Source of the DNA: a virus
DNA length: 61,712 nucleotides
IMG/VR virus record: IMGVR_UViG_3300027917_000003
Coordinates: 1 to 61,712 of that record
Strand: one strand, 5' to 3'
Under the pieces are notes generated by a model. That model searched no databases. It saw only the letters and a program-made list of their open reading frames with translations, and was not told the origin of the DNA. Made by a program: the position numbers and the translations under genes. Below, in pieces: positions 13,733-33,334 of the stretch (the first letter of the stretch is position 1; each line of letters starts with the position of its first letter).

Positions 13733-13944
13733 GCTTACCCCTCCTAATATCAACAAGGCGGTCAGTGTCTCGCAATTCGCTGACCCGGTCAATGCGCCGG
13801 ATTTCTAGGCGCTCCGAAGCCCACCGAAATTATTTTTCAAAAAAGTTATCCACAGGGCTCAAACGCTGTAGACAGGCGAAATTATTTCGTCTACAAGTTT
13901 AATCACGGTCGCTGATGACCTGACTGATTGATATGGAGACTGAC
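13733..13944. promoter_or_regulatory. Divergent promoter region between late and early blocks
   Basis: This region separates the leftward GapR/terminase block from the rightward early block. It holds a DnaA box at 13846-13854, the P1 promoter at 13869-13897 and an AT-rich patch (13826-13850). Leftward, TTGACC lies about 60 bp before the GapR start with a poor -10, so the late promoter is uncertain. Confidence 0.6.
13846..13897 (+). promoter_or_regulatory. DnaA box plus early promoter P1 (repeat copy 1)
   Basis: A perfect DnaA box TTATCCACA (13846-13854) stands 23 bp, start to start, before a -35 TAGACA (13869-13874), with 17 bp to TACAAG (13892-13897). Downstream is the shared leader CACGGTCGCTGATGACCTGA. 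Unlike copies 2-4 this copy has no hairpin between box and -35, consistent with no rightward gene preceding it. Confidence 0.7.
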
Positions 13945-14259
13945 ATGACCAAGATCCTCAACGTGACCACCGGCCCCGCCAACGAACTGTTCCCCGGCTG
14001 CAAGGGTTTTGTCGTTGTCGCCGAGACCCGCAAGGGCGAGGTGTTCATCCACGAGCGCAGCGACCTTTCTCTGGCCCAGTGCAAGCGCCTTGCTGATCGC
14101 GTTCAGGTCGCTGGCGAGATTGATGAAAGCCGTTGGGTTTTCTGGCGCACTGTTTACGGCTCTGACGCCTTCCTCGCAGAAGAGGCGGACGTTCACTTCA
14201 TCCTCGGCGGCGGGGGTCGTTACGAAGATCTCCCCGATAGCCTTCGCTCTCTCGCTTAA
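13945..14259 (+). CDS. Early small protein, unit 1 gene A (104 aa)
   Basis: The second ATG of the ATGGAGACTGACATG initiation box is chosen, because the GGAG within it serves as ribosome site. The 104-aa soluble protein has a beta-rich first half (GFVVVAETRKGEVFIHERS) and an acidic C-terminus. It is the first gene after P1 and is followed by a UUCG hairpin. No function recognised. Confidence 0.6.
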   Translation: MTKILNVTTGPANELFPGCKGFVVVAETRKGEVFIHERSDLSLAQCKRLADRVQVAGEIDESRWVFWRTVYGSDAFLAEEADVHFILGGGGRYEDLPDSLRSLA

Positions 14260-14266
14260 TCCAACC

Positions 14267-14282
14267 GGGGGCTTCGGCCCCC
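14267..14282 (+). terminator. UUCG-tetraloop intercistronic hairpin 1
   Basis: GGGGGC-TTCG-GCCCCC is a very stable hairpin without a T tract, placed between genes A and B of early unit 1. It is more likely a processing or stability element, or a partial terminator, than a full stop. Confidence 0.6.
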
Positions 14283-14309
14283 GCCCACCCCAACCGAATG
14301 GAGATTGAT

Positions 14310-14573
14310 ATGCAACGCCAAGTCCCCACCAAAGACACCACTATCCTCGGCATCATGCGCACCGCCGCCTTCTCGACGGGCTTCCGGGAGGCGCAGGCTG
14401 GCAAGCCTATCCGCTATGACGCCTATGAGCATGACGCCAATGGCCAGTGGAACTATGAGCGCGGGCGCATGCTGGGCCTGATGTTTGGCGGCCCCCTGAA
14501 GGTGGGGCGGGCGATCAGTCGGGCCGCAGCCCTTCACTTCGCGATGGCTATTAAGCAGAAGGTCATCCTGTAA
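14310..14573 (+). CDS. Early small protein with RMF-like motif, unit 1 gene B (87 aa)
   Basis: The start is the second ATG of ATGGAGATTGATATG. The 87-aa basic protein has FSTGFREAQAGKPIRYDAY followed by QWNYERGRMLGL, which is weakly reminiscent of ribosome modulation factor (a G..A..G block, then a QW..G.R block). The resemblance is by eye only. The stop runs straight into the next DnaA-box/promoter repeat. Confidence 0.55.
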   Translation: MQRQVPTKDTTILGIMRTAAFSTGFREAQAGKPIRYDAYEHDANGQWNYERGRMLGLMFGGPLKVGRAISRAAALHFAMAIKQKVIL

Positions 14574-14578
14574 AAAAG

Positions 14579-14641
14579 TTATCCACAGGGTGCGAAAATG
14601 CTTCGCACCCTGTTGACAGGCGAAATTTCTTCGTGCTAAGA
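14579..14641 (+). promoter_or_regulatory. DnaA box, hairpin and early promoter P2 (repeat copy 2)
   Basis: DnaA box TTATCCACA at 14579-14587; hairpin GGGTGCGAA/TTCGCACCC at 14588-14610; -35 TTGACA at 14613-14618; 17 bp; -10-like CTAAGA at 14636-14641. The box-to-minus-35 distance is 34 bp, which is 11 bp (one turn) more than in copy 1. The hairpin probably ends transcription of the preceding gene. Confidence 0.75.
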
Positions 14642-14683
14642 GTTATGCACGGTCGCTGATGACCTGACCTGATGGAGATTGAT

Positions 14684-15295
14684 ATGCCCCTGTTCATCGA
14701 AAACGAAGCCGCCTACGAAGCCGCCATCGAGCGCAACATCGCCAACAACCGCCGCAAGACCGGCGCCCGCAAGTTCGCTGCGCTGTTCGAGGACGCGACC
14801 GCCATCATCGACTTCGTCGAGACCCGCGTGTCCGACGCTCAGGTGGCGCACTGGGCTCGCTTCGGTCGCGGCATGGAGGAGGCCTCCTTCATCGACGCAT
14901 GCTGGGCTGGCCTTCAGACTTTCGGCGGCCTGACCGAAAAGCAGGGTCTGGCGGTGCGCTCGATCATCGCCAAGAACGCCGAGCGCAAGGCTCAGTATCG
15001 CGCCGAGGCCCTCACCAAGGTCCATGTGGGCACGGTCGGCGAGCGCCGCGACTTCGACCTGACCGTGCGCTTCGTGACTGACTTCGAGACCCAGTTCGGC
15101 ATCACCAACGTGTTCGTCATGGAGGACGCCGAGGGCAATGTGGTCGTCTACAAGGGCGCTGGGAGCCTCTACAACGCCGATGGCCAGTTCGCGGTGAAGG
15201 GCGACAAGATCTCGGTCAAGGCGACCGTGAAGGAGCATGGCGAGCGCGATGGCGTGAAGCAGACCATCATCGCCCGCCCGAAGCAGAAGATCTGA
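14684..15295 (+). CDS. Early protein, unit 2 gene A (203 aa)
   Basis: The start is the second ATG of the MEIDM-type box. The first half is helical (MPLFIENEAAYEAAIERNIA). The second half begins LTEKQGLAVRSIIAK and continues as a beta-rich domain with VVVYKGAGSLYNADG and GDKISVKATVKEH. It resembles a beta-barrel domain seen in phage proteins of unknown function and could bind nucleic acid. It is the largest protein of the early block. Confidence 0.65.
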   Translation: MPLFIENEAAYEAAIERNIANNRRKTGARKFAALFEDATAIIDFVETRVSDAQVAHWARFGRGMEEASFIDACWAGLQTFGGLTEKQGLAVRSIIAKNAERKAQYRAEALTKVHVGTVGERRDFDLTVRFVTDFETQFGITNVFVMEDAEGNVVVYKGAGSLYNADGQFAVKGDKISVKATVKEHGERDGVKQTIIARPKQKI

Positions 15296-15310
15296 GGGGC
15301 TTCGGCCCCT
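15295..15310 (+). terminator. UUCG-tetraloop intercistronic hairpin 2
   Basis: AGGGGC-TTCG-GCCCCT directly follows the stop of unit 2 gene A. It has no T tract and the same geometry as hairpins 1, 3 and 4. Confidence 0.6.
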
Positions 15311-15338
15311 CCCCACCCCTATCCTGATGGAGATTGAT

Positions 15339-15686
15339 ATGAACACCGTAGCTATCAAAGCCGCTCTTACCTATCCCAAGACCAAGAAAGGTGATGTCGT
15401 CGTCATCGAGCTGACGAGCAGCTATACGACCGCCAAGCTCAAGACGGTAAAAACATCGTCTTATTTCCTCGCCAAGGTCACCAAGACCCGCAATGGGCTT
15501 GCAGTGGACTATACGAAAGCCGATGGCGCCAAGGGGATCGTAGACACACGCCACCGCGTCATGGTGATCAGCCAAGCCGAGACGCAGGCTGCGGCGCGAG
15601 ACATGTTCGGCGCCAGTTTGGCAGACTTCGACAACGTCGATCAGGCGAAAGAGGCGATCCTTCAAAGGGTGAAAGACCTGAGCTGA
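15339..15686 (+). CDS. Early small protein, unit 2 gene B (115 aa)
   Basis: The start is the second ATG of ATGGAGATTGATATG. The 115-aa Lys/Thr-rich protein is predicted to be beta-rich up to residue 75 (KGDVVVIELTSSYTTAKLKT), followed by an acidic helix. No family recognised. The stop abuts repeat copy 3. Confidence 0.6.
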   Translation: MNTVAIKAALTYPKTKKGDVVVIELTSSYTTAKLKTVKTSSYFLAKVTKTRNGLAVDYTKADGAKGIVDTRHRVMVISQAETQAAARDMFGASLADFDNVDQAKEAILQRVKDLS

Positions 15687-15692
15687 AAATAG

Positions 15693-15755
15693 TTATCCAC
15701 AGGGTGCGAAAATGCTTCGCACCCTGTTGACAGGCGAAATTTCTTCGTGCTAAGG
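15693..15755 (+). promoter_or_regulatory. DnaA box, hairpin and early promoter P3 (repeat copy 3)
   Basis: DnaA box at 15693-15701; hairpin at 15702-15724; TTGACA at 15727-15732; 17 bp; CTAAGG at 15750-15755. It is nearly identical to copy 2 over more than 60 bp, with the same 34-bp box-to-minus-35 spacing and the same leader. Confidence 0.75.
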
Positions 15756-15798
15756 TTCAATCACGGTCGCTGATGACCTGAACTGATGGAGATTAGAG

Positions 15799-16026
15799 AT
15801 GACCAACCGCTTCCCCTACGCCACCAAGATGCTCAACCTCGGCAAGCATGGCTACATGCTCCGCATCACCATTTCTCTCGCCAAGATTGAAGAGACGAAG
15901 GCGGAGATGATGTTGGATAGCGATATGATCAACTCAGCGGAAGAGCTGATCCGCTACCTCAATGCGGAAATCATCCGCGAAGAGGCCGACGCCGAAGAGT
16001 GTTATACCGACTGGGCCTCCGACTAA
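15799..16026 (+). CDS. Early small protein, unit 3 gene A (75 aa)
   Basis: The 75-aa acidic protein (MTNRFPYATKMLNLGKHGYM at the N-terminus) has its ATG after GGAGATTAGAG, a variant of the common initiation box. A helix-rich C-terminus ends CYTDWASD. Function unknown. Confidence 0.6.
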   Translation: MTNRFPYATKMLNLGKHGYMLRITISLAKIEETKAEMMLDSDMINSAEELIRYLNAEIIREEADAEECYTDWASD

Positions 16027-16028
16027 CC

Positions 16029-16044
16029 GGGGGCTTCGGCCCCC
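16029..16044 (+). terminator. UUCG-tetraloop intercistronic hairpin 3
   Basis: GGGGGC-TTCG-GCCCCC lies between unit 3 genes A and B and has the same sequence as hairpins 1 and 4. Confidence 0.6.
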
Positions 16045-16072
16045 TTCCACCTCAACCCTGATGGAGATTGAT

Positions 16073-16351
16073 ATGACCTTCGACTTCTACAACCTCGGCG
16101 AGAACAGCGTAAGCTTCACCTTCTCGGCCTCCGGCGAGACCCTCTGGGACCAGATGTGCGAGGCCATCGCCGATCACATCTTCGGCGCTGACCCTTACGC
16201 CGAGACGCCCGCCCGCGACTTCGTGGAGATCGTCGAGATGCAGACGCCTGACGAGGCCGAGTACGTCGAGGCCGTCTTCGTGAAGGGCAAGCTGGTCGGC
16301 TCCCTCGGCGGCCCCTTCTGGCTGGACCCCAGCGAGTATGTGAAGATCTAA
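16073..16351 (+). CDS. Early small protein, unit 3 gene B (92 aa)
   Basis: The start is the second ATG of ATGGAGATTGATATG (16073). A longer in-frame reading overlaps the upstream gene and is rejected. The 92-aa protein is strongly acidic (MTFDFYNLGENSVSF, then repeated Glu/Asp), so a DNA-mimic or protein-binding role is possible but unproven. Confidence 0.6.
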   Translation: MTFDFYNLGENSVSFTFSASGETLWDQMCEAIADHIFGADPYAETPARDFVEIVEMQTPDEAEYVEAVFVKGKLVGSLGGPFWLDPSEYVKI

Positions 16352-16358
16352 AAAAAAG

Positions 16359-16421
16359 TTATCCACAGGATGCGAAAATGCTTCGCACCCTGTTGACAGG
16401 CGAAAATAGTTCGCGTAAGTT
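16359..16421 (+). promoter_or_regulatory. DnaA box, hairpin and early promoter P4 (repeat copy 4)
   Basis: DnaA box at 16359-16367; hairpin at 16368-16390 with one A-C mismatch; TTGACA at 16393-16398; 17 bp; TAAGTT at 16416-16421. The downstream leader is the most diverged of the four, but the 34-bp box-to-minus-35 distance is kept. Confidence 0.7.
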
Positions 16422-16465
16422 CAAACCACGGTCGAGATAGAGACCGCAACCTGATGGAGATTGAT

Positions 16466-16765
16466 ATGACCGCTCTTAACACCGTCGCCGCCACCGAAGT
16501 CTACCTCGCCGCCAAGGCCCAGTTCGACGCTGCCGAGACCGTCCTCAAGGCCGCCAAGAAGGATGTCGTGGACATCGTCGGCGGTTACGGTTTCCTCGAA
16601 GGCGAGACCGCCGACCTCGACATCGCCTTGCAGGCCCGCAAGTCCATCGACGAGAAGCTCCTCCTCCAGTTCCTGACGCAGGAGCAGATCGACGCCTGCA
16701 AGGTCGAGGGCGCCGCCTTCCCGGTCGTGCGCATCAAGGCCAAGAAGGTCAAGAAGGCGGCCTAA
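16466..16765 (+). CDS. Early small helical protein, unit 4 gene A (99 aa)
   Basis: The start is the second ATG of the initiation box. It is a 99-aa Ala/Lys/Glu-rich helical protein (VYLAAKAQFDAAETVLKAAK) with a basic C-terminus KAKKVKKAA. It may be a coiled-coil or nucleic-acid associated protein; no family recognised. Confidence 0.6.
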   Translation: MTALNTVAATEVYLAAKAQFDAAETVLKAAKKDVVDIVGGYGFLEGETADLDIALQARKSIDEKLLLQFLTQEQIDACKVEGAAFPVVRIKAKKVKKAA

Positions 16766-16774
16766 TCATCAACC

Positions 16775-16790
16775 GGGGGCTTCGGCCCCC
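16775..16790 (+). terminator. UUCG-tetraloop intercistronic hairpin 4
   Basis: GGGGGC-TTCG-GCCCCC stands between unit 4 genes A and B and lacks a T tract. Confidence 0.6.
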
Positions 16791-16814
16791 ACCCACCCCT
16801 GAAGGAGAATTGAT

Positions 16815-17024
16815 ATGTACTACGTTGTCCCCAAAGATCGCTCCGTCCTCAAGAGCCTCAAGACCTTCGAGACCCTCTACGAAGCCCGCCGCTTCGCGGA
16901 AGACACCAAGCTGGTGACCAGCGAAAACTACGACATCATCCGCATGGACCGGGTCTGGACCACCCAGACCTTCGACGAGGCCCACCTCGCCTCGCTCGAC
17001 ATCCCCCACATGGCCCGCGATTAA
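16815..17024 (+). CDS. Early small protein, unit 4 gene B (69 aa)
   Basis: The 69-aa protein (MYYVVPKDRSVLKSLKTFET) follows GGAGAATTGAT. It has a compact alpha/beta look, with YEARRFAEDTKL and YDIIRMDRVWTT. Function unknown. Confidence 0.6.
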   Translation: MYYVVPKDRSVLKSLKTFETLYEARRFAEDTKLVTSENYDIIRMDRVWTTQTFDEAHLASLDIPHMARD

Positions 17025-17032
17025 TATCCCTT

Positions 17033-17054
17033 GGGGAGGGCTCAGGCTCTCCCC
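17033..17054 (+). terminator. Intercistronic hairpin 5
   Basis: GGGGAG (17033-17038) pairs with CTCCCC (17049-17054). It has no UUCG loop and no T tract, and stands between the 69-aa and 65-aa genes. Confidence 0.5.
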
Positions 17055-17077
17055 AGTCCCACGCAATGGAGATTGAA

Positions 17078-22218: not shown

Positions 22219-24390
22219 CTAGTCGATTGATCCGATTACCTTAAGGCCTTGCATCTTCGTGTTCTTGTCCACGACCTCATAAGACAGAACTTGGTTAGAG
22301 AGCCACGTCTCCACCATCATATCGACCAGCTTTTCAGGCAGATCGAATTGCTGACCCAGAACCGCCGCCACATAGCGCCCCTGCTTGCGGGTCTGGGAAT
22401 AGCTTGAGAGCGGGCGCCCCGAGAACCACGCGACCCTAATCACATTGATCATGTCGCGGCAGACTTGTTTCTCGGGCCAGACGCTCTTGGGCGCCGCCTT
22501 CTCGTTCGCCTGCGCGGCGTAGAGACTGCCCTCGCCGGTGATGTCATTGACGACGACCTTCTTCAGTTCGAAGGGCAGGCGCCAGCCATCCTCGGCGCTC
22601 TTGATCTTGCGGGCGTGGATCTCGCCGACGCTCTCGCCCTCCTCGCGCTCGATGCCGAGCAGGAAGTCACCGGCGCCGTCGAAGACGGTCGAGCCGCGAA
22701 GGTTGCCAGCCCGGCTCGTGTGGTGGACGCCGACGACTGTCGCCCCGAAGGTCGTGCGGACGGCGTCGCAGGCGCCAATGAAGAGGGTCATGTCCTTCTG
22801 GAGGTTCTCGTCTGCGCCCGGCAAGACGCGGCTGACCGTGTCCACGAAGACCGTGACAGGCATCTCTCCCGCCAGCTTGCCAGCCTTGGCCACCGTGCGC
22901 AGGAGCCGCTCCACGTCCGCCTGAGCCATGAAATTGATGTTCTGGCGGATCAGGTAGAAGGGCAGGCCACGAACCTGAACGCCAGCCTCCCTCTCCCACG
23001 CGAGAATGCGGTTGCCGATGTCGCCAACGCCCTCGGACGAGATGTAGACGACCGGGCCAGACTTGTTGATCTTGCGTCCAAACCAGTCTGCGCGCTGGGC
23101 GCAGATCGACAGGCCCATGCCGATTGTGATGAAGCTCTTGCCGCATCCCGGAGGCCCGTAAACGAAACCGAGCGCGGTTTCGATCATCAGCTTGTCGATC
23201 AGGTACTTGGGCTTGGGGAGGGACAGGATGCCCTCCACGTCGAGCAGCTCATACTCGTCCTCGACTGTCGGTTTTACGACATCCACGAACAGCTCGCCCG
23301 TTTCCTCATCGACCTTGTAGAACTTGACGGGCTGCGGCTCATCGGCCTGATCGAAAGGGCGGCTGGGGCGCTCCACCTTCGCATGCTCTGCTACCTTGCC
23401 GTCCCACTGCTCAATGGCCAAGGTCCATTTGTGGCGGAACAGGCTGAACCCGCGACCCTCCCGTTCGAGGAGGTCAAAGTTCGAGGCGCCGGGCATATGC
23501 AGGCGGCTCTTCACCTTGCGCTCGTAGGTGGCGAAGGCGTCATTCATGGCCGTTTCGCTCTCCACCTTCGAGGGCGGAATGGGCGCGTCCCGATAGAGAT
23601 CGACGACCGCAGCCCACACGAGCTTGGTCATATAGTCCTCGCGGCCATCGACGATGTTGCCAAAGTTATCCACAGCTTTATTTGGTGACGCAGTTTTTTC
23701 GCCTGTTACACGGTTCACGCCACTTGACCCGCCATGCTCGATGGCGAGCTTCGTGATCTCGTCACAGAACCATTGTGGCGCTGTGGCGATCTCCATTTCC
23801 CACGGCTCGTGGCCCTCCTTCCAGCGGTAGGACTTGCCGCTCTCGTGGGTGCTGGGGGGCATCATGGCGAAGCCACCCTGCCCCCTGATGTCCACCCCGA
23901 TGCTTGTCTTGCATGTCGGGGGAACCCAGCCCAGAGGGGCGCGGAAGAAGAGCTGAACGCCTCCGCCGCCGGTGGCCTGCTCGACCGTGTCCAGCTCACC
24001 GGCGTTCTGTTTCATGTGAAACATGTCGTCCCACCACGCCTGCGCACGGACATCCTTGTGCAGGTCGAGATCCACGACGAAGATCCCATTGGAGCAGGCG
24101 CCCGCGATCAGGCCCATGTTGTTGCGGCGGGCATGCTCGCCATCCTCGCCATACCAACGCTCGAAGGTGAAGTCAGGGATCAGCTCGTTTTCCAATTCGC
24201 GCCACTTCGGCAACGCCGGGCGCTTCCATTGGTTCTTGTTTTCCCTGTGACTCATGGCCGGGACGACCTGCATCCCGTTGCCACGATACATGCGGGCCCA
24301 CTCTGCCGGATCAGCGAAGTCTGGGTCAAACGAAGCGTTCATATTAATTGTTCCATCATTTCCATCTGAAGGCAGCGACATCACGTCCAT
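22219..24390 (-). CDS. Primase-polymerase / RepA-type helicase (723 aa)
   Basis: The N-terminal 220 residues form a bifunctional primase-polymerase domain: NNMGLIAGACSNGIFVVDLD with the catalytic DLD, TGGGGVQLFFRAP where a His is often found but Gln is present, and VDIRGQGGFAMMPPSTH. From about residue 390 comes a RecA/RepA-type ATPase with Walker A YGPPGCGKS, Walker B VFVDTVSR and GVHHTSRAGNLRGST. The C-terminal 70 residues form a winged-helix-like domain. It is the central replication protein. Start codon 24381 is equally possible. A DnaA box lies inside it at 23666-23674. Confidence 0.88.
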   Translation of the reverse strand: MDVMSLPSDGNDGTINMNASFDPDFADPAEWARMYRGNGMQVVPAMSHRENKNQWKRPALPKWRELENELIPDFTFERWYGEDGEHARRNNMGLIAGACSNGIFVVDLDLHKDVRAQAWWDDMFHMKQNAGELDTVEQATGGGGVQLFFRAPLGWVPPTCKTSIGVDIRGQGGFAMMPPSTHESGKSYRWKEGHEPWEMEIATAPQWFCDEITKLAIEHGGSSGVNRVTGEKTASPNKAVDNFGNIVDGREDYMTKLVWAAVVDLYRDAPIPPSKVESETAMNDAFATYERKVKSRLHMPGASNFDLLEREGRGFSLFRHKWTLAIEQWDGKVAEHAKVERPSRPFDQADEPQPVKFYKVDEETGELFVDVVKPTVEDEYELLDVEGILSLPKPKYLIDKLMIETALGFVYGPPGCGKSFITIGMGLSICAQRADWFGRKINKSGPVVYISSEGVGDIGNRILAWEREAGVQVRGLPFYLIRQNINFMAQADVERLLRTVAKAGKLAGEMPVTVFVDTVSRVLPGADENLQKDMTLFIGACDAVRTTFGATVVGVHHTSRAGNLRGSTVFDGAGDFLLGIEREEGESVGEIHARKIKSAEDGWRLPFELKKVVVNDITGEGSLYAAQANEKAAPKSVWPEKQVCRDMINVIRVAWFSGRPLSSYSQTRKQGRYVAAVLGQQFDLPEKLVDMMVETWLSNQVLSYEVVDKNTKMQGLKVIGSID
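23666..23674 (+). promoter_or_regulatory. Perfect DnaA box inside the primase-helicase gene
   Basis: TTATCCACA with flanks AAAG and GC matches the four promoter-linked boxes. It sits in coding sequence with no visible promoter, so it may be incidental. Confidence 0.4.
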
Positions 24391-27850: not shown

Positions 27851-28165
27851 TTGAAGTTTCTGCTCACGATGAACATGCCAGCCCACCGAGGTGGCCCCAT
27901 TCACCAAATCACCTGTGAGCATCCCGCAAAGAACCTCACCGAGTTCTGCGACGCCCTAGAAAAGAGCGAGTTCATCCTTGTCGAAGAGTTCTATCGAGAT
28001 ACCGAAGCGCCGGAAGGCTCAGACCCCTACTATTCGGTCGGTTTTACTGCGCTCAACTATCGTGTCATCGGCAAGATTAAAGAGCTGGGGACTGTCACGA
28101 CCGCCAAAAAGTCCATTAAATTTGGAGATAGATATGAACAGAACCTTCGAAAGGGTAACCTTTAA
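27851..28165 (+). CDS. Small hypothetical protein, TTG start (104 aa)
   Basis: TTG 27851 lies 7 nt after GGAG, mimicking the common initiation box. A GTG six bases upstream is too close to the ribosome site. The 104-aa protein begins MKFLLTMNMPAHRGGPIHQI and contains AKNLTEFCDALEKSEFILVE. It overlaps the next gene by 32 nt. Function unknown. Confidence 0.55.
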   Translation: MKFLLTMNMPAHRGGPIHQITCEHPAKNLTEFCDALEKSEFILVEEFYRDTEAPEGSDPYYSVGFTALNYRVIGKIKELGTVTTAKKSIKFGDRYEQNLRKGNL

Positions 28166-29123
28166 CGGTGAAGCCCACACCGCAGGGTACAAGGTAACGT
28201 GCTGCCGCTGCCAGAGTGTAGATAACATCGGCGCCGGTTCTCACTCCGGCAACTTACCGCCCGAGGTGATCAGTAAAAAGTTCACGCAGCGCGGGTGGCG
28301 CCTCGGCAAGCGTTTGAATTTGGACGTCTGCCCCCAGTGCATCACCAAAGAAAAAATCTCTCGCAAGTCGATCAAGCTCGGCGACTTGTCGAAGAATGAC
28401 GTGCAGGTGCTCGGCCTTGGGGCGGCGCCACCCCATCCCGTCGAAGAGAAGACCCTGACGATCATTGAGGCCATCAGGTTCGGATGGGCGAGCAAGCCCA
28501 CAATCTACCGTTACATCGCAGACGGCAGGCTTCCCTGCATAAAGGAGGACGGAAAAATGCTCCGCGTGAAAGAAAGTGACTTAGAGAGCGCCTTTAAAGA
28601 CATGCGCAGATCTGCTCCCCGGCCAGTCATTCACTTGAAGACCAAGCAGTCAGTGAATGAACCGGCACCGCCAGTTAATGACCCCAAGCCCCTATTGAAT
28701 GAAGGAGACGCCCCAGTGGCCACCATACCCATAGCCCCCATGACAAAGGAAGACCGGCGCATCATCTTCAGCGAGATTGACAGCCACTACCTCGACGAGC
28801 TGCGCGGCTATGCCAAGGACTGGGACGACCTGAAAGTGGCCACCGGGCTGAAGGTCCCCGTTGAGTGGGTCCGCGTCATCCGAGAAGATAATTTTGGCGC
28901 TGAGAAGGGAGACCAAATTGGCATTGAAATTGAGAAGCTCAAAGCGTCCAGCGCCGAGGCCGAGAAGCTGATCCAGACCATGCGCACTCTGTGGGAGGCG
29001 ATGGATAAGACTCTTGAAGAGTTTGAGGCCAAGCAGGCCGCCCTTTCCGAAGAGGCCACCAAAGTCCACGCCGCCATCGCGGACGCGAGGGGCAAGATCG
29101 ACGCCTACACCAACGGCAAATGA
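28134..29123 (+). CDS. Zinc-finger / excisionase-type HTH / coiled-coil protein (329 aa)
   Basis: The start is MNRTFERVTFNGEAHTAGYK after GGAGATAGAT. A first domain has two Cys pairs (TCCRCQS and VCPQC), probably zinc-binding. Then a MerR/excisionase-like HTH, IIEAIRFGWASKPTIYRYIA followed by GRLPCIKEDGKMLRV, stands at about residues 110-155. A Pro-rich linker, an EWVRVIREDNFG segment and a C-terminal coiled coil (about 270-325) complete it. It is probably a DNA-binding regulator or replication accessory protein. Confidence 0.65.
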   Translation: MNRTFERVTFNGEAHTAGYKVTCCRCQSVDNIGAGSHSGNLPPEVISKKFTQRGWRLGKRLNLDVCPQCITKEKISRKSIKLGDLSKNDVQVLGLGAAPPHPVEEKTLTIIEAIRFGWASKPTIYRYIADGRLPCIKEDGKMLRVKESDLESAFKDMRRSAPRPVIHLKTKQSVNEPAPPVNDPKPLLNEGDAPVATIPIAPMTKEDRRIIFSEIDSHYLDELRGYAKDWDDLKVATGLKVPVEWVRVIREDNFGAEKGDQIGIEIEKLKASSAEAEKLIQTMRTLWEAMDKTLEEFEAKQAALSEEATKVHAAIADARGKIDAYTNGK

Positions 29124-32814: not shown

Positions 32815-32830
32815 TCAAATGGAGAATAAA

Positions 32831-33334
32831 ATGAGGACGCTTGAGGAACTCCACGCACATTACAAGGCCGTTCGCGCCAGATTAGATAACCCCGTTAAGA
32901 AGGAACCCGCAGTCCGCCTCATTTACCCGGAACCAGAACCGGCGCCGTACCCAGACCCCCTCGACGTTGTGGAAGTTGTTGAAGCCCTGCCGGAGGAGCC
33001 CATTGCCGCCCCTCCGGTGGCCACTGAGACCCCTGCAAGAAAGATCCTGTCAGAGGTAGCCGAGAAGCATGGAATGCCTCCCACGGTCTTCCGCAGCAAG
33101 AGCAGGGACGCAACCTATGTGCTGTGCCGTCAGGAGGCGGCTTATCGGCTCAAGACCGAGCTGTCTTTTTCCCTGAGCCAGATTGGCCGCCTGATGGGCC
33201 ACCGGGACCACACGACCGTCCTCCACGCCATCCGTCGATACGAAAAAAATCTCGCCCTCGGCTTGGGGCCTTGGGCGAGCAAGTGCGTCTCGAACGCCTG
33301 TGTCACTCAGGTGGAACCCACAGGCGCGACATGA
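32831..33334 (+). CDS. DnaA domain IV-like DNA-binding protein (167 aa)
   Basis: The start is the second ATG of ATGGAGAATAAAATG. Residues 1-70 are a helix (MRTLEELHAHYKAVRARLDN) and a Pro/Glu-rich linker. Residues about 70-145 match DnaA domain IV: a VLCRQEAAYRLK helix, FSLSQIGRLMGHRDHTTVLH and AIRRYE, including the RDHTTV signature that contacts DnaA boxes. The AAA+ ATPase domain III is absent. Its stop overlaps the start of the GcrA-like gene (ATGA). It is expected to bind TTATCCACA, five copies of which are in this genome. Confidence 0.85.
   Translation: MRTLEELHAHYKAVRARLDNPVKKEPAVRLIYPEPEPAPYPDPLDVVEVVEALPEEPIAAPPVATETPARKILSEVAEKHGMPPTVFRSKSRDATYVLCRQEAAYRLKTELSFSLSQIGRLMGHRDHTTVLHAIRRYEKNLALGLGPWASKCVSNACVTQVEPTGAT

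Follow-up and report, generated by a model that had tools for sequence, protein, structure and literature searches.

What reads a consensus DnaA box that a virus has placed repeatedly upstream of its own promoters? IMG/VR virus record IMGVR_UViG_3300027917_000003, analyzed here over its whole length of 61,712 bp (the window) and bearing a 99-bp terminal direct repeat at its ends, carries four promoter cassettes at 13.8–16.5 kb, ahead of short genes on the + strand, and each cassette contains a perfect TTATCCACA box. The same virus encodes a 171-aa protein (32819–33334, + strand) which, judged by its sequence, is a DnaA domain IV standing on its own, with the residues that touch the box retained. 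At somewhat less than even odds (about 45%), we propose that host DnaA reads these promoters first, that the phage domain IV factor takes over afterwards, and that a second operator adds another layer. As part of this reading, the best explanation for the cassettes is that they are portable promoter modules for small phage genes, transcribed by host RNA polymerase.

Four promoter cassettes with DnaA boxes

All four cassettes follow one order: an A-tract ending in G, the TTATCCACA box followed by GG, a hairpin (internal copies only), a −35 element, a 17-bp spacer containing a dyad, a −10 element, a dyad leader and a strong ribosome binding site of the GGAGATTGA type. In copy 1, the A-tract and box (13839–13854, with the box at 13846–13854 and kept in relatives) precede a promoter at 13869–13897 (−35 TAGACA, 13869–13874; dyad CGAAATTATTTCG, 13877–13889; −10 TACAAG, 13892–13897) and the leader dyad GGTCgctgatGACC (13907–13920). 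The copy 2 box (14579–14587) is followed by a hairpin (14588–14610), which doubles as the gene-end hairpin of the preceding gene, and by a promoter at 14613–14641 (−35 TTGACA, 14613–14618; spacer dyad, 14621–14633; −10 CTAAGA, 14636–14641). Copy 3 has its box at 15693–15701, its hairpin at 15702–15724 and its promoter at 15727–15755 (−35 TTGACA; spacer dyad, 15735–15747; −10 CTAAGG, 15750–15755). The corresponding features of copy 4 lie at 16359–16367, 16368–16390 and 16393–16421 (−35 TTGACA; spacer dyad, 16401–16413; −10 TAAGTT, 16416–16421). The leader dyad is identical in copies 1–3, and copy 4 has a different one, GGTCgagatagaGACC (16430–16445), a variant of the common leader. All of these features are on the + strand; the boxes, starting at 13846, 14579, 15693 and 16359, share one orientation and are spaced 670–1110 bp apart.

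Copy 1 has 23 bp from the start of the box to the start of the −35 element, copies 2, 3 and 4 have 34 bp, and the −35 and −10 elements are 17 bp apart in 4 of 4 copies. A first-pass annotation of this DNA had described four cassettes with perfect boxes, 17-bp spacers and these same two distances, and the coordinates, together with the Markov expectation given below, confirm it. The CTAAG-like −10 that it assigned to every cassette fits two or three copies and not the rest, and the common leader that it described excludes copy 4. With TTGACA or TAGACA, a 17-bp spacer and weak −10 elements, the cassettes have the form of sigma70-type promoters, whose −35 and −10 elements lie 16–18 bp apart. A generic promoter scan of the window did not list them, because their −10 elements diverge from TATAAT. 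The genes behind the cassettes are probably early, to judge from the host-type promoters and from their position.

The four perfect copies match the 9-mer TTATCCACA that defines a DnaA box, and chance does not account for them. Five perfect TTATCCACA boxes were found in the genome against 0.12 expected (second-order Markov model, both strands), and four of the five lie in the cassettes. TTATCCACAGG is confined to the four cassettes, with 0.004 occurrences expected on the + strand under the same order of model. Counting boxes with one mismatch, as the first-pass annotation had suggested, gave 11 against 5.3 expected and is a weaker test than the count of perfect boxes. The fifth perfect box (23666–23674) is inside the primase/helicase gene; four relatives (G032, G033, G044 and G047) have an extra box downstream of their cassettes, which may be the equivalent of this site.

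A second repeated element, overlooked by the first-pass annotation, is the dyad CGAA-N5-TTCG. It occurs seven times in the 61.7 kb, in the four spacers and in the three hairpins (14593–14605, 15707–15719 and 16373–16385) and nowhere else, against 1.6 occurrences expected; 0 of 100 shuffles reached seven. In relatives found by the box alone, the spacer dyad was present at 13 of 13 promoter boxes. As no transcript includes the spacer, the dyad probably works at the DNA level, serving as an operator between the −35 and −10 elements. Covariation of the spacer dyad among relatives had no statistical support, as its arms scarcely vary and the search pattern selected for them. A 381-aa protein with an HTH_17 domain (27978–29123) is a candidate binder of CGAA-N5-TTCG.

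The hairpin of copies 2–4, GGGTGCGAA-AATGC-TTCGCACCC, has a predicted stability of −14.8 kcal/mol (−8.5 kcal/mol in copy 4); copy 1, which faces a divergent gene, is without it. Since each hairpin contains CGAA-N5-TTCG and stands where other early genes have a terminal GGGGGCTTCGGCCCCC hairpin, it is both a gene-end structure and a possible second operator. We rejected the hairpins as intrinsic terminators: TGTTGACA follows them instead of a T-run, and they are not listed among terminator-like sites. An Rfam search gave no match. Across 14260–17060 there is exactly one hairpin after each early gene, mostly with a CTTCGG-type loop and with no T-run.

These features raise the alternative that boxes and hairpins mainly insulate, a box-bound DnaA roadblock and the gene-end hairpin together stopping transcription of the upstream gene. 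Termination by a DnaA roadblock has been described (PMC11317965), each internal box comes straight after a stop codon, and the cassette hairpin replaces an ordinary gene-end hairpin. However, copy 1 retains its box even though the upstream gene is divergent, the hairpins have no U-tract, and the box-bearing first cassettes of relatives all keep a 23–24 bp spacing, as described below. We consider insulation very improbable as the main role.

Cassettes in related phages

Relatives were collected from terminase relatives and from pattern scans of IMG/VR, yielding 45 nonredundant cassettes in more than 25 related contigs. The box is perfect in 28, has one or two mismatches in 4, and is not recognizable in 13; two of the phages with such cassettes carry an inverted box. 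Among the 32 boxed copies, the box-to-−35 distance is 23 bp in 16, 24 bp in 1, 34 bp in 9, 39 bp in 2, 40 bp in 2, 41 bp in 1 and 44 bp in 1. Every box-bearing first cassette has its box at exactly 23–24 bp. The first-pass annotation had taken the 11-bp difference between 23 and 34 bp to mean that a bound protein acts on polymerase from a fixed face of the helix. Distances of 23, 34 and 44 bp do fit whole turns, but the five copies at 39–41 bp are about half a turn off, and the 34-bp copies all carry one homologous hairpin and therefore represent one event rather than independent evidence of phasing. Thus, a strict helical-face interpretation is not supported. Nor is the hairpin absent only where no gene precedes, as had also been claimed: three internal cassettes lack it at the usual place, two of them directly after a stop codon (L141-6160 and L138+5201), while in the third (L012-8532) the hairpin sits upstream of the box.

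The nine box bases average 98% identity over the 32 boxed copies, and the linker past the invariant GG and a mostly-G third base drops to 34–75%; boxed copies were picked by having at most two mismatches, which makes the conservation figure somewhat circular, yet 28 of the 32 have a perfect box. The content of early genes is mosaic. In one relative (L005, 4600–7500, compared with 13.9–17 kb of the window) modules g5 and g3 are in swapped order. Given this mosaic content and these changes of module order, a cassette and its genes behave as a portable unit, shuffled between related phages, and it is the promoter cassette that recurs from module to module.

Such duplication and shuffling, as in the g5/g3 swap, is what would be expected if the boxes had no regulatory role and were marks of a replication origin, sites for DnaA titration or passengers of promoter-repeat duplication. 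Against this explanation, the boxes are separated by 670–1110 bp, all in one orientation and each at a fixed point of its promoter, and diverged contigs mostly keep them perfect even though the greater part of the linker is variable. Four boxes are also too few for titration. The origin and titration readings were rejected on geometry, and a nonregulatory role in general seems to us quite improbable.

By terminase, the isolates nearest to the window are Paracoccus and Roseobacter phages (36–38%), and an uncultured Manatee Spring phage is closer (59%); none of them has cassettes in the genome parts examined. The window contains no tRNAs. Among bacterial genomes, the cassette was found only on a 3.2-kb contig assigned to an Opitutae bin.

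A DnaA domain IV protein of the phage

The first-pass annotation had guessed that a protein at 32831–33334 might bind the boxes, and this guess turned out well: the 171-aa protein at 32819–33334 is a DnaA domain IV protein. It has an N-terminal helix (residues 8–23, HYKAVR), a disordered linker and a C-terminal domain IV (residues 75–140; DNA 33041–33238). It matches Pfam PF08299 (Bac_DnaA_C) with an E value of 2.5e-16 and 59.9 bits against a cut-off of 31.5, and with an E value of 3.5e-18 in another search. Its best solved relative is the complex of E. coli domain IV with a DnaA box (PDB 1j1v), to which the predicted structure, confident over domain IV, superimposes in Foldseek with an rmsd of 0.9 Å over 75 columns. 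The N-terminal helix is conserved as an HYxxVR motif ahead of domain IV. Neither an AAA+ domain nor DnaA domain I was found in the 171 aa, which hold only domain IV and the one helix, and the protein appears not to be a DnaA replication initiator.

H434 is counted among the DNA-reading residues of DnaA domain IV. Its equivalent (H131) and that of R399 (R96) are invariant in 9 of 9 family members; the T435 equivalent is T or S in the family, and the window protein has T, R and R at the positions of T435, R442 and K443. In E. coli DnaA, R399 (in the minor groove), T435, R442 and K443 have roles in DNA binding (PMC9638019). The link between the cassettes and DnaA is thus strengthened by a phage-encoded DnaA domain IV, the gene for which lies in a separate + strand block (~27.8–33.6 kb) apart from the early cassettes.

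Protein and boxes partly co-occur. Among genomes of the clade longer than 50 kb, the window, G019 and G013 have both the protein and a promoter-linked box or near-box (one TTATCCATA promoter box in G019, one inverted box at a promoter in G013), and G018, G029 and G030 have neither the domain IV protein nor any TTATCCACA at all. Outside the clade, the arrangement A-tract, box, 23/24 bp, TTGACA occurs in three groups of phages that all encode a DnaA domain IV protein, namely L100/L106/L218, L294 and L097 (where the protein is partial, at a contig end). The HYxxV N-terminal motif is common to L100, L218 and L294, that is, to two of the three groups, and in L100 and L218 the gene follows the box on the same strand at a distance of 2–3 kb. 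In one set of records, the protein was found in 0 of 47 forward-box records with other spacings, and it was found in 0 of 50 controls. L089/L111, in which the protein is without the N-terminal motif and the box looks coding, were given no weight.

Three phages in GenBank that encode a DnaA domain IV (Rhizobium RHph_N28_2, Bradyrhizobium ppBeUSDA76-2 and MW202711) have no TTATCCACA in the genome parts examined; hence, the protein alone does not imply boxes. In 385 genomes of a class drawn around a Phenylobacterium assembly, no stand-alone relative was recognized, and nearly all matches were in frames of 440–644 aa, read as host DnaA. In G244 and G352, a DnaA domain IV match falls in short frames (110 and 156 aa), which are either genes cut at contig ends or stand-alone proteins.

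How the boxes may be read

From the anatomy of the cassettes, their conservation, the domain and its partial co-occurrence with the boxes, we infer the following order of events. Host DnaA would bind the box upstream of polymerase first (at about −55 with the 23-bp spacing). Once made, the phage domain IV protein would replace DnaA at the boxes and contact polymerase via its N-terminal helix, probably as an activator, and the promoters would then stay on regardless of the nucleotide state of host DnaA. A second protein on the spacer dyad, and on the hairpin dyad, would switch the promoters off.

Several observations weigh against this scheme. In vivo, E. coli DnaA favors boxes in pairs, separated by 2–3 bp, and many single consensus boxes stay unoccupied (PMC11317965); the cassette boxes are single, and this is our main reason for caution about host DnaA acting alone. 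The spacing is not strictly phased, as the copies at 39–41 bp make plain, 13 of the 45 cassettes have no recognizable box, and in two clade members the box is inverted. One clade member (G022) has a shorter domain IV protein without the N-terminal motif and no promoter box; L198, L217 and several other phages with boxes at 23–25 bp are without the protein, and one 18-bp record does carry it. The association between protein and spacing (Fisher 7e-4) is post hoc with hand-counted lineages and is suggestive only. Finally, by sequence the phage protein could be an activator or a repressor.

In the latter case, the domain IV protein would displace host DnaA and shut the early promoters when the middle genes come on. 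The structural evidence for domain IV fits a repressor equally, as do the absence of AAA+ and DnaA domain I and the placement of the gene in a block away from the early cassettes. Nevertheless, a box ~20–40 bp upstream of the −35 element is in a typical activator position, with no overlap with the core contacts of polymerase; the spacer dyad is better sited for repression; and the genes of L100 and L218 lie behind box promoters of their own. We therefore regard a repressor as unlikely.

A survey of other viral promoters bears on the part that host DnaA might play. In IMG/VR, the placement of TTATCCACA ahead of TTGACA-N17-TATAAT depends strongly on orientation and distance: 31 of 87 oriented boxes stand 18–20 bp upstream, compared with 6 of 77 inverted ones (Fisher 2.4e-5; loci L339–L440, many unrelated phages). 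An A-tract-anchored scan gave the same peak and at least 118 stretches, where a reversed-promoter control gave 45; both scans start at 18 bp, and the real optimum may be shorter. Once this peak was removed, no 10.5-bp periodicity of box spacing in viral promoters was significant. The domain IV protein was present in 1 of ~25 sampled members of the 18–20 bp class, which fits host DnaA. The survey points to a larger second class of phage promoters, with the box 18–20 bp from the −35 element, likely read by host DnaA itself and distinct from the 23/34-bp class of the window. L085 (11875–11968; also L121 and L127) and L248 have several tandem DnaA boxes upstream of consensus promoters, possibly origins or DnaA-controlled promoters. 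In the phage contigs L094, L095, L107, L116 and L117, DnaA boxes come in pairs separated by 2 bp, in several cases ahead of TTGACA, near CCCGGGC motifs and GGAGTTTGGGAGTTT repeats.

If host DnaA alone read and activated the cassettes, early expression would be tied to host DnaA activity, and the phage protein would work elsewhere, for example in blocking oriC or in phage replication. DnaA does activate lambda pR/ori-lambda, E. coli nrdAB and Caulobacter genes (PMC8203912), and the oriented boxes at 18–20 bp in unrelated phages nearly all occur without a phage protein in those sampled. But the 23–24 bp class differs in spacing and is the one enriched for the protein, and clade genomes without the protein have no boxes. 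We hold host DnaA alone to be rather unlikely.

Returning to the successive reading by host DnaA and the phage factor, we offer a broader version tentatively, as something possible. In it, a widespread, hitherto unrecognized family of phage transcription factors, defined by an N-terminal HYxxVR helix and DnaA domain IV, would have captured the DnaA box as an operator placed 23–24 bp from the −35 element, and during infection such phages would replace host DnaA at their own promoters and perhaps also at sites that DnaA controls in the host. If the proposal is true, a virus switches its genes with the DNA-reading head of its host's replication initiator, at the consensus site that the host itself uses. 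The way in which one DnaA box can activate transcription, called poorly understood (PMC11317965), would become open to test, and the arrangement of A-tract, box, 23–24 bp and TTGACA with a stand-alone domain IV gene would be a signature for finding more such systems.

By analogy, the nearest precedent is the pair of gene transfer agent (GTA) activators GafA (Rhodobacter capsulatus) and GafY (Caulobacter), DnaA-domain-IV-like proteins that contact omega or sigma70 (PMC9638019, PMC11150451), and the proposal would link GafY-type activators to virulent phages. As we propose for the phage protein, these use a DnaA-IV-like module as a transcription factor and not as a replication initiator, in phage-derived alphaproteobacterial elements and with the housekeeping polymerase (PMC9638019, PMC11150451, PMC9632790). 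The phage protein shares their DnaA-IV-like DNA-binding domain; however, domain IV is N-terminal in GafA and C-terminal, after a short helix, in the phage protein, so we do not file it as a GafA/GafY member and compare kinship at the level of the domain only. GafA has E8 where DnaA has the minor-groove R399, whereas the phage family keeps R. Both Gaf proteins also recognize sites other than the DnaA box; GafY uses another element (−123 to −113), needs IHF and acts with a degenerate −35, in contrast to perfect DnaA boxes 23–34 bp from near-consensus −35 elements in the phage. At lambda pR/ori-lambda, nrdAB and gcrA, too, host DnaA has its box close to a sigma70-type promoter; what sets the phage apart is the fourfold repetition of the module, its pairing with a dedicated spacer operator, and a domain IV of the phage's own. 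Near-identical promoter repeats running through an early region of small genes are likewise general among phages, but in this case every copy in the window carries a DnaA box and a spacer dyad, in gene modules that can recombine.

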